Source: Ceraceosorus guamensis (lineage: Eukaryota; Basidiomycota; Exobasidiomycetes; Ceraceosorales; Ceraceosoraceae). From it: a stretch of DNA of 64,000 bases. The notes below the pieces were generated by a model that had not been told where the DNA came from, searched no databases, and saw only the letters and a list, made by a program, of their open reading frames with translations. This document shows, in pieces, positions 45,292-55,670 of this stretch. Every line of letters begins with the position of its first letter. The stretch's first letter is position 1. Location of the stretch: assembly GCF_003144195.1 (NCBI RefSeq), contig NW_020290042.1, positions 90,240 through 154,239 on the forward strand, in the 5' to 3' direction. The position numbers and the translations under genes are program-made.

Positions 45292-46980
45292 CTACGCTCT
45301 AGTCTCGGTCGATCGACGAGGCGGATGGGCTGCACTGTGCGAAGGACACTGGTAATCGGACCAACTTCGATCGTTCGCCGGACAAGAGGACGATCCTGCT
45401 CTTCTTGAAGTGTCAGGAGGTGAGCTGGATTTGATGCTGATCATCGACTTCGAATGGCGCGCATTAGAGCTCCCATTGCTCAGACCTGGAGCTTCTTGTA
45501 GGCTAGCCGCGGCATGTCGAGCACGTTTGACCGGTGTGATCCTCATTCCATTGTTGCCTTTTGGCCGCTTTTTGATAGGTCGCATCTGCGAGGTATCAGG
45601 CTCCGCTTGCTGTGCGGCAACGGTTGCTCTGTCCACCGAAGCGATTGGTGTCGTCTTTCCAAAAATCATTTTGACACCGTTACTGGACGAGCCAAAGTCG
45701 TTGGGCGTATATGTATTTGAGGGACTCAGTAGGCTACTGATCGTGGCCGCCGAGGCTCCCGCTCTGATAGTCAGACCAGCTCTGGGCATGGAGGGAGGTC
45801 TCATGATACGGCTCGAGGTAGATTCGTTGTTCCCTATTTCCGATCTTGCAGTGCTTCGAGGCTGAGTGAGCTGCCGCGTTAGGTGCGTCGCCGCTCTCGC
45901 CTTGCTCATCAAGGTTTGTCCCTTGCTCCGTTGACCGGCGCTCGTCACGCCTGCCTTTGCAGTGGACAGTCCCCTTCTCTTCTTCAGGTGAGACTTTGCT
46001 ATCGCGTCGTCCACCACGATGCCTCTGGAATCCCTTTCCGCCGTGGCTGCCGCCAGACGCTCTCGCAGACGAGCGCTTGCTGCCTCCTTCGCTTCCTTCT
46101 CAGCGCCCAGTTCCCGCAGATACAGTCGCCTCCAGGAGGCGGGCGGCTCGCGGTCATACAACCCCTCCGCGTCCTTCCTGCGTACGGATGCGAGGTCCGC
46201 ATGCGCGAGACGGCGCCAAAGATCTGCGAGTTTGACACGAGGATGGCAATTATGAGCAGGTGGCGAACGGCGATGGTCGGCCACAATCAAATCGCACCTT
46301 CTGTCTCTGACATGATTTGCTGCACAAGCGAGACGAGGGAGCAATGCGACTCAAGTGTCAGAAAGCACCCGCCGCTCTTCAGCCGGATGTGTGCGCTTCA
46401 GACTTACTGGAGAATTACCTTCGATCACCATCAGCTGACTTGCAGAGCAGTGTCGTAGCACTGGCCCCGCCAAGCTGTAAGGCATGGCGCCTATGTCTTC
46501 AACCACTGTAAAGACGATTAGCTTGGTCACTCAGCACGAGCGCAAAACGGGTGGGGATGATAAGGAAAAGCTCACTGTGGATGTTGCGGCAGATGACTGG
46601 ATGCATGAGTCAAGAGGTGATGTCAATCGTGAGTCCGTTCCAACAGCTGCAAGAGCAACATTGAAGGTGGAATTTTCCCATCAGAAGCAAGGAAAAGTGA
46701 ACTCACCCGTCATGGCCATGCTCTTGAGGCTCATCATCTTGCTCACACGGGCGTCTTGCCGCGCTTGCCTCTCGTGCGTTTCCTCCTCGGCAGCAGCGGC
46801 CATTGAGGCCATCTTTGAGCTGCCCTCATTGCCCAAGAAAGGAGCAATGTATGCGCCAGGCAGAACCTCGTCGAGGCTGGAGTGGGAAGACTGAGATTCG
46901 GTCGGGGGTGTTGCTGATTGCACTGGAGGCTGAGGACCCATCATAGAGGGTGGCTCAGGAGATCGTTTCCAATCCTTCAT
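45292..46980 (-). CDS. ELA1: Elongin A (RNA polymerase II elongation / Cul3 adaptor subunit)
   Basis: Exons 46707-46980, 46576-46596, 46408-46505, 46298-46319 and 45292-46223; 448 residues. Elongin A binds Elongin C; in fungi the complex serves a cullin ligase that acts on stalled RNA polymerase II. After a 75-residue extension the Elongin A domain reads MSLKSMAMTVICRNIHMVED, IGAMPYSLAGPVLRHCSASQ, LMVIEGNSPQIMSETEDLWR, then RLAHADL and REPPASWRRLYL; the first part is the BC-box-like and F-box-like region. Two exons are only 21 and 22 nt, yet all phases close and both are needed to rebuild the conserved block. An Arg/Lys/Glu-rich coiled coil and a basic Ser/Pro-rich tail with KKRPKGNNGMRITPVKRARH follow. 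The domain is weakly conserved, so the call is good but not certain. Confidence 0.77.
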
Positions 46981-52347: not shown

Positions 52348-55300
52348 ATGAAGCTTTTGTTCGACAAGACTGGATCCGTTGCGCACGTTCCGAGCAGGCT
52401 TCACGAGCGAGCAGCGAGCCAGGTCAAGCAGCACGAGCACGTCGGTCGAGAGTGTGATGGAGACACCGCAACGACCCGACAGATACCTCAAAGTTCTGTC
52501 GTGGAGGCAGATCCAGCTCCCCCCGTCCATGAGGACTCGAAGTCGTGCCCGCCAGTGTGGGCAGAAACGAGGCAAGAGCTGTGCGAGACGTTGCAGTACT
52601 TTCGCTCCTACCATGGAGGCTCTTATGCCCAAGGCGCAACACCCATCAACTCCGCGCTGGTCAATAAAGCTCGATCGAAGGCGGACAGCGTGTTCAGAGA
52701 TACAGTGCCGCTGGGTTACTTGCTCGGGGCATACGGCAGTCAGAGAGATGCTTGGGCTTCAGGTGGCAGAGTCGTAATTTCGCACGGGCAAGTGATGCGT
52801 CAGACACCTGATCCGCGCCACTTCATGAAAAGTCTTTGACCGACGATCGCAATCTCTGCCCCTCAATCATGGTGCACAGAGGCGGGAAATCCGTCAGCGA
52901 ACCTGGGGATGACACGATAGATCAATCCTTGCCTCCAGATGACACATCACCATCTTCGGCCAAGCAAGCCCTCCCTTCGCCAGCATCAGACCCAATTCAG
53001 CGCTTCAGGCTGGCAGACGATCAGAGCGAGCACGACGGGAGAGTGGCGGGACTAATACAGAGCTACGAGCAACGCAGGCCCATCGTGCTCATCTTGGCCT
53101 CCGACTATCCTCTTTGCGACTTTCAGCATCCTTGGCCCTTTGCTGTGCTTGGCTGGTAAGAGAAGCACAAGCGACTGCTGCCTTTTGTGCATCCCCTCAC
53201 ATCCGCTTCCATGGCCATTTGCCGAACTTTTCAGGTATCGGATCACACTGGCTTGGCCCGAGAAAGAGTCTGGTGTGGATGGGAAAGAGGGGCACGTGAG
53301 ATGGAAGTTCCGATTTGAGGTGAGTGCTTCAGTAGGCACCCCCAGAAGTGGAACCATCGCACCTACTCTGACATCTGCACTTCCATGCTTGCAAAAGTGG
53401 ATCGGCGCTCAAGGCGCGCCATGGTGGCTTGAAACGCCAGCCCGAGAGAGCCCAGAGCCACCAGCACCCTCAAAGGAGGTTCCTGCTGAGTCGCATTTGC
53501 AAGACAGTATTTTAGCTAGAGAGGACACGGTCGCCGCAAAACGGGCAGCATTCAGTGACGTAACCCGAAAGGTACGCCGGAATGCCGCCCTCATCTCTCT
53601 GTACACTCCCAGCCTGTGCTACGATCACTCGACGATCAAATGCCGAAGCTGCAACAGGGACTCGCCGACCGTCTATCGCGTTTGGTTGTGTCTCAATACA
53701 GGCTGTCCCAAATTTTGGAAGGTGAGCTTGAACAACGCTTGTTGAGCAGTGCGGTGTATCGCCTGGGCGGCTCATCTTTTGACAGTGGCAACAGAGACGT
53801 GATGGCGCCAGATCGCTCGATCCCGTCTTTTCCCAGCTTCGATTCCACGAGACCTTTCTGTGCACCACTGAAAGAGATCAAGAACAATTTCAGATCCCTT
53901 TCGACGTGGCACCCCCCCAGCCGAGCTCTTCTAGTATACAGACAGCAGACGATATACGAGGCTGGCATTGCCCCAGGTGTCATCGTCTGTCTGCGCGTCA
54001 GTTTGCGCAGTATCGGTTTTGTCCCACGTGCTCCAACATCAGGGTGCCTGAACTAGAGCTGGTGCCGCTGCCGCTTGTCAGTGCGCTCACGCCTTTGATC
54101 GAAGATGCAAAGGTGCATTCCCATGCTGGTATAGAGACCAGCACCCGACGCACTGAAGACGGACTTCAAATCACTACCTGGGCGTTACCGATGTGTCTGG
54201 GCGGCGGTAGAATACACGTCGTACAGCGCGAAGATGGCGCCGAAGTAGAGGCCGATGACATCTACATGCTTTCTCAGCGATCGATTACTTCGACAGGAGT
54301 GAACGATGAAAAAAGTTGGAAGGATGTGATACGATTCCGCAGACATCCTCTGACTTGCCATTCGATGAAGAGCACCCTGCTGAGCCAGCAAGTGAGAGCA
54401 CACGCTGATCGCTACAGCGCAAGCAGGTTGCAGAGGCTGACGCTGCACACGTGCAATCGGCCCAGTTCACGTTCAACTACGGCGCAGAATACAAGGTGAG
54501 TATATTTGCGCTGTAGACACTCACAACCAGCTTGTTCTCCAGCTTAATGCTTCCAGCCCACCGTGCGACGCACAGCACGCCGTGAAGCTAGACACGACCC
54601 CTATGGAACAAGCGCCGCAGAGCGCCAAATCTGCAATGGCGTTAATAGAAGCTCGGGTGCGCGCTGCGAACCTCTGCAGCAAGCAAGAACCTTTCAATGA
54701 GCTGTACCCCGTTCGATACGTTGAAAGCCAGCAAATGAACTATCACGACGATGGGGAACCTGGTTTGGGACCTGTTGTCGCTTCCCTTTCGCTCGGAGTC
54801 ACTGCAACTATGAGCTTCAGGCTCAAGGCTAAGTATGCTCGGGGAGGACAAAACGATGTGACCAAAACCATTCATCACCCCGAGTCGAGCACGACAGCTT
54901 CACATGTCGTTTGGGATAAACCGATCCAGGAGCAAGTCAAAGAAGAGGTCGGAGAGGTTGCTGGAGATTTCACAGAATGGCACACGACGTTGGATATGGA
55001 AAGTGTGGCTCAAAATGCCTTGTTGAATGCTCGTTCTGAACCCGAAATCGATGCAGAACAGCGTCTCGAGGCGATGGTCGAGGCAGAGTGCGCCATGTCC
55101 GAGGTGCCTCAGATAAGCCAACACAACCGTGTACTGCTCAGCGTGCCGCTCAAACATGGGAGCGTCTGCATACAAGAAGGTCACCGCTTGCAGAAATTTG
55201 TGGAGTGAGCGCGGCACGCTTAACCACTTGGAGCACGTTCGAGCTCAGCTTCGCTGACATTTGTGTTCTTTTTGTCTTGTGCGCACAGACACGCTGTCGA

Positions 55301-55670
55301 GCCTTTGTCGGCGACTGGGAGTAGCGGGGCAGGGGGACTGAGGTTTGCATTCACTGCTCGGGCAATCTACCCGCGCAAGTCGAAGAAAAGGCCGCGGATC
55401 AAACTGCTGCTAAAGCCAAAGCCAGAGCACGAGGAGGTGGAGAGCGCTGCCTCACGGCAGCAGCAGCAGCAGCGGCAGCAGCCGTCCCCCGGCCAGCAGC
55501 AACCGACAGCGCTTGAGCAGAAGACATCGTTACCTTGCAAGAGATTGGGGAATGACTACGAGAAGAAGCTGCATCGGAAGAAGAAGAAGACGACGGGTCT
55601 GCACAAGATGCCGAAGGACCTCATGAAGATCTCTTCGTTTGTGCTGGGCAGCACGCGCCGGCCGACATGA
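52348..55670 (+). CDS. AlkB-like 2OG-Fe(II) oxygenase with cysteine-rich zinc-ribbon modules
   Basis: Exons 52348-52791, 52833-53155, 53235-53319, 53398-53721, 53837-54391, 54427-54495, 54543-55204 and 55289-55670; 947 residues, all phases close. The N-terminal half is an uncharacterised module (WAETRQELCETLQYFRSYHG, GGRVVISHG, VLGWYRITLAWPEKES). Two Cys-rich units follow: CRSC...CLNTGC with FW, and CPRC-x12-FCPTC. The C-terminal part matches the AlkB double-stranded beta-helix: iron ligands His-Asp in MNYHDDGEPGLGPVVASLSL, a third His in FVEHAVEPLS, preceded by VPLKHGSVCIQEGHRLQ, and the 2OG-binding RxNxTxR motif as LRFAFTARAI (Asn replaced by Ala). About 110 residues are inserted inside the oxygenase domain. 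The tail is basic with poly-Gln. This predicts an oxidative demethylase/hydroxylase; the substrate (nucleic acid or protein) is unknown. Introns of 35, 41 and 47 nt occur here. Confidence 0.78.

Follow-up and report, generated by a model that had tools for sequence, protein, structure and literature searches.

A divergent AlkB-superfamily gene with two four-cysteine patterns in Ceraceosorus guamensis

Gene model and the region preceding the AlkB domain

The gene described here occupies positions 52348 to 55670 on the forward strand of the window, a 64,000-nucleotide stretch of the Ceraceosorus guamensis genome (contig NW_020290042.1, positions 90,240 to 154,239). An earlier sequence-only reading had proposed a model of eight exons and 947 residues, which splicing of this stretch reproduced exactly, giving 947 residues followed by a stop codon. 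The seven introns range from 35 to 92 nt, with GT-AG ends in six of the seven and GC-AG ends in the first (52788-52879). Exon 1 (52348-52787, residues 1-147; all exons are on the plus strand) comprises an N-terminal segment that begins at a predicted start codon and ends at the GC donor. It is followed by exon 2 (52880-53155, residues 147-239), which is backed by splicing and codon score, and by the 85-nt exon 3 (53235-53319, residues 239-267); no Pfam family was found in any of these three. Codon usage was scored against 10 other long stop-to-stop frames in the window, which served for training and are not verified genes. By this score the used frame ranked first of six in seven of the eight exons, with small margins in some and a value of 0.0 for exon 8; the single miss is exon 3, where the score is not in favour of the frame. 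The model also requires a 35-nt intron at 54392-54426, and an alternative 32-nt intron, which would add one Gln, is also compatible with the sequence. Of the gene model, the first exon and its start codon are the least secure.

Eight nearby or long reading frames in the window were scanned for families. On its right the gene is flanked by frames for a Nudix hydrolase and a DHHC palmitoyltransferase; the frame on its left gave no family match, and the neighbouring frames give no functional hint. A minus-strand frame elsewhere in the window (45298-46350) carries a near-cut-off match to Elongin A (27.2 bits versus 29.8).

Two four-cysteine patterns precede the oxygenase domain. The first, C349-C352-C365-C370 (53641-53706, plus strand), lies at the end of exon 4 (53398-53721, residues 268-375) and has a second pair of the form C-x4-C. 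The second, C437-C440-C454-C457 (53969-54031, plus strand), lies in exon 5 (53786-54391, residues 376-577), ahead of a segment without a Pfam family. Two separate CxxC pairs had been described previously; the pairs are present, but each belongs to a complete four-cysteine pattern, so that 'pairs' understates what is there. Among 20,000 shuffled versions of the protein, at least one such pattern occurred in 167 and at least two in 3. The second pattern weakly resembles zinc-ribbon families, below cut-off, and in Pfam no zinc-ribbon family exceeded its cut-off for the putative ribbons (best PF23145, 15.5 bits, cut-off 25). Their assignment to a named family was rejected on these sub-threshold Pfam scores and on PDB matches at E 0.74 or worse. 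The unassigned N-terminal part, formerly put at about 450 residues, proved longer: residues 1-577 hold no Pfam family above cut-off in scans of the whole protein and of four pieces, the pieces omitting about residues 283-320. We also rejected the idea that the front or ribbon part is repeated in the genome, as each matches only itself at E up to 1. At the opposite end of the protein, Lys and Arg make up 26% of the last 97 residues, with basic stretches around residues 850-857 and 917-921 that we take, from a general rule, to resemble nuclear localisation signals; residues 324-328 form another small basic cluster.

The AlkB domain, its motif residues and its relatives

The AlkB domain starts in exon 6 (54427-54495, residues 578-600), which opens directly behind the 35-nt intron and contains QFTFNYGAEYK. 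Exon 7 (54543-55204, residues 601-821) holds the bulk of the domain, the PF13532 match and a long insertion, and exon 8 (55289-55670, residues 821-947) supplies the third Fe ligand, the R-x5-R strand and the Lys/Arg-rich tail. PF13532 (2OG-FeII_Oxy_2/AlkB) matched the whole protein at E 1.1e-11 (45.8 bits, cut-off 31.2) and the domain alone at E 1.2e-12, again above the curated cut-off. Together with ALKBH3 matches in the PDB and an alignment with viral AlkB proteins, this match bears out the AlkB-family membership that had been claimed from the letters of the sequence. The motifs cited for that claim, MNYHDDGEP, KHGSV, FVEHAVEP and RFAFTAR, were likewise all recovered, in the order expected for AlkB.

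To place individual residues, we aligned the protein with 23 viral AlkB proteins, a Vibrio AlkB and the genome's own paralogue L001. The viral set derives from a motif scan that yielded three viral loci, alignment of whose AlkB proteins led to 29 loci, of which 23 were aligned. One locus (L013) was left out for an in-frame stop, and five (L018, L020, L023, L025 and L027) were left out as sharing length, identity and E-value with a kept neighbour, their letters not having been compared. Some members are near copies of one another (L033, L035 and L036), and L012, L015 and L030 share contigs with L009, L011 and L010. The alignment positions the first and second Fe(II) ligands at H668-x-D670 (54744-54752, plus strand) and the third at H822 (55290-55292, plus strand). 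These three residues, and Y659, S683, Q817, R839, T843 and R845, fall in columns that are identical in all 23 aligned viral proteins. Of the two patterns used to retrieve the viral proteins, one contained H-x-D and the other the NxY residues, so part of the conservation in those columns comes from the selection itself; neither pattern covers the columns of H822, R839, A841, T843 and R845.

Two motif asparagines are replaced. The segment R839-F-A841-F-T843-A-R845 (55341-55361, plus strand) aligns with RxNxTxR and has Ala in place of Asn, as the sequence-only reading had noticed; the same column holds Asn in 21 of the 23 viral proteins and Ser in the other two. The segment V657-R658-Y659 (54711-54719, plus strand) aligns with NxY and has Val in place of an Asn that is present in all 23 viral proteins, in the Vibrio AlkB and in L001, a change that reading had missed. 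Both positions depart from strict ALKBH2/ALKBH3-type features, and strict membership of that type is therefore not claimed. Fungal proteins combining YHDDGE-GLGP with RFALTxR are, we presume, well represented in public sequence databases, in which case the Ala would be characteristic of the family. The insertion said to split the domain is also real, although it aligns as about 95-100 residues (roughly 699-797) rather than the 110 first given, and it is acidic, with 20% Asp/Glu in residues 701-795.

The strength of the homology is uneven along the domain. With a profile of 23 viral AlkB proteins and the Vibrio AlkB (24 in all), the gene's protein scored 22.2 bits (E 9.4e-7 in a set of 204 sequences), and not one of 200 shuffled sequences was reported up to E 10; the domain's second half, taken by itself, scored at chance level (0.3 bits). 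Single-sequence comparison with the same 24 proteins gave 21 at E below 0.03, the exceptions being L040, L031 and L039. Homology is thus carried by the Pfam match, by the domain's first half and, in its second half, by the order of the motifs, and the protein is a divergent AlkB member. The loss of both asparagines, the long insertion and the low score of the C-terminal half are what might be expected of an inactive or very weak AlkB relative, retained for nucleic-acid binding or regulation. We consider this quite unlikely, since the Fe ligands, the Tyr, both Arg, the Thr and the Gln are all kept, whereas drift at these positions would be expected in a dead enzyme. The replacements at V657 and A841 suggest instead a shifted 2-oxoglutarate or substrate pocket.

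The same genome (23.8 Mb, 199 contigs) contains at least four PF13532 loci including this gene, a lower bound from a six-frame search. The paralogues L001 (contig C184), L002 (C5) and L004 (C16) exceed the PF13532 cut-off, as this gene does, but read TSITFR, INLTFR and LSITGR in the RxNxTxR region, with Ser or Asn where this gene has Ala. The 24-protein profile gave L001 93.5 bits and L002 81.4 bits and left L004 unreported. When the gene's own domain was searched against the paralogues and 200 shuffles, L002 scored 7.2 bits and the best shuffle 5.0; L001 and L004 were absent from the best eight matches. By these scores, the AlkB domain of the gene appears far more divergent than those of L001 and L002. 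L002 (G000:C5:206486-210181, minus strand), with its canonical INLTFR, is of separate interest: its upstream part reads DLERALELSEQEA and EEEALEAALAASMEQ, which we take, from the general pattern, to resemble tandem ubiquitin-interacting motifs, making L002 a possible ubiquitin-recruited repair demethylase.

Further relatives were sought in collections of viruses, plasmids and prokaryotes, a scope that says nothing about rarity in fungi. Protein-guided scans with the AlkB domain gave 2 pattern matches in viral contigs and 19 in genome contigs, none of which was confirmed. A degenerate-DNA scan for YHDDGE.GLGP found none in viral or genome contigs, and a looser version found none in viral contigs. 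A 130-residue piece of the domain had no match among phages and two weak matches among plasmids (E 0.2-0.3), and scans of these collections led by the L001 alignment and by the Vibrio AlkB found no relatives. Structure prediction added little. The exon 7 model (mean pLDDT 55.5, pTM 0.36) represents a partial domain built on a shallow alignment and is evidence neither way; its input was unspliced sequence lacking the first and last domain strands, aligned with 21 AlkB partners truncated ahead of the insertion. No AlkB chain was found among the 50 matches listed by each of Foldseek and VIA-align for this poor partial model. Exon 5 modelled alone was unusable (mean pLDDT 34.1), and one alignment (A4) was rejected as input to structure prediction, its domain end having been set on the insertion.

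Sequence searches of the PDB bear more directly on the kind of AlkB protein involved. At E up to 10, the only AlkB-family chains matched were four ALKBH3 sequences, with weak E-values of 0.029 to 0.41; the first half of the domain matched ALKBH3 chains at E 0.0048 to 0.071, again without any other AlkB type. Zinc ribbons can have protein as well as nucleic-acid partners, and given the replaced asparagines the gene might encode an AlkB-fold oxygenase acting on a histone or other chromatin protein, with the ribbons as protein-binding modules. Schizosaccharomyces pombe Ofd2, a member of the wider enzyme class, has been reported to interact with histones (PMC3175000). We nevertheless regard a protein substrate as distinctly improbable: the solved relatives, weak as their E-values are, are ALKBH3, a nucleic-acid demethylase, and include no other AlkB type.

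Proposed activity and genomic setting

Taken together, the alignments and searches make it rather probable that the gene encodes a nuclear AlkB-superfamily oxygenase dependent on Fe(II) and 2-oxoglutarate, lying nearest the ALKBH2/ALKBH3 side and probably within a group nearly confined to fungi. The protein most likely acts on nucleic acid, and a nucleic-acid demethylase guided by its ribbons is a plausible form of this activity. In such an enzyme, iron would be held by H668, D670 and H822, and 2-oxoglutarate would be bound by R839 and Y659, the roles given to the motif Asn, Tyr and Arg residues being general background on the family. An N-alkyl group on a base (e.g. N1-methyladenine or N3-methylcytosine) would be hydroxylated and then released as an aldehyde. 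Retention on single-stranded DNA or RNA within the nucleus would fall to the two putative zinc ribbons together with the basic tail.

Which methyl groups such an enzyme might meet was considered from the genome's own complement of methylation genes. Six-frame searches found a cytosine DNA methyltransferase (L041/L042, G000:C19:225460-227229), represented by two pieces of PF00145 over cut-off and in order, together with two MT-A70 loci and two YTH loci, in some of which stop codons inside the matches may be introns. The best Tet_JBP match (L046, G000:C85:22481-22654) reached only 25.2 bits against a cut-off of 34.9 and contains two stop codons, and is possibly a decayed copy or a stretch interrupted by introns. 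An MGMT-type domain (PF01035) was found at E 0.001 in all 14 control genomes and not in this genome, a search that an intron-split domain could escape. Given the methyltransferase, MT-A70 and YTH loci and the lack of a detected MGMT, the substrate could be alkylation damage or a deliberate methyl mark.

The second of these substrate classes underlies a further alternative, in which the gene encodes a TET-like base-modifying oxygenase that oxidises a deliberate mark (such as 5mC or 6mA) and is not a repair dealkylase. The methylation loci listed above make deliberate methylation of DNA or RNA likely in this genome, and an AlkB-family protein from another fungus, Mucor Dmt1, lowers 6mA in vivo (PMC8470550). 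We consider this alternative very unlikely for the present gene, as no feature of its sequence ties it to those marks and its solved relatives are ALKBH3. A bolder proposal is that the gene belongs to a separate AlkB branch whose co-substrate pocket has been rebuilt, both motif asparagines being replaced. Its two putative ribbons and unassigned front module would target it to a particular nucleic acid or chromatin site, as part of a lineage-specific system for demethylation or base oxidation in a genome with no detected MGMT; we hold this to be rather unlikely. A long AlkB protein with two zinc-ribbon patterns and two exact motif changes would be well suited to testing the function of fungal AlkB groups, including whether they act on damage or on deliberately placed marks.

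Comparison with known AlkB proteins

Among structurally characterized proteins, human ALKBH3 (PDB 2iuw, 9ncz, 8jnr and 8jnk) has in common with this gene the block H-x-D..E..LG..P.(I/V)ASLS.G. The solved ALKBH3 chains comprise 232-250 residues, whereas the present protein carries about 580 extra residues in front, an insertion within the domain and replacements of two motif asparagines.

Results from two species indicate that repair is not the role of every fungal AlkB protein. Deletion of the dmt genes in Mucor, where Dmt1 is a genetically tested AlkB-family protein, left sensitivity to ethyl methanesulphonate unchanged, and both S. pombe AlkB homologues are cited in the same paper as not repairing DNA lesions (PMC8470550). 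Demethylation of m6A by ALKBH genes is said never to have been confirmed in fungi (PMC10826363). The Fusarium graminearum ALKBH2 (FGRRES_09872), a 933-residue protein with PF13532, is described as a close relative of human ALKBH3 and Arabidopsis ALKBH2 (PMC10826363). Compared by description, its likeness to the present gene is that of a long fungal protein carrying a domain of the same name.

Among the titles of open-licence papers surveyed, none concerned a zinc-ribbon-AlkB fusion. The closest described groups are ALKBH11, ALKBH12 and ALKBH13, which a clustering of 1943 AlkB proteins found to be almost entirely fungal and grouped with ALKBH2/ALKBH3 (PMC3265494); a table in that study also marks diatoms for ALKBH12 and bacteria and stramenopiles for ALKBH13. 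The present gene resembles these groups in its AlkB domain and its probable ALKBH2/3 affinity, insofar as a comparison by description allows, and the sections of that study drawn on here make no mention of zinc ribbons. Such groups, nearly confined to fungi, were described as early as 2012 (PMC3265494); the 'lineage-specific' character suggested by the sequence-only reading agrees with them and need not imply a new system. The gene is most likely a member of this already known, little-studied kind of fungal AlkB protein.
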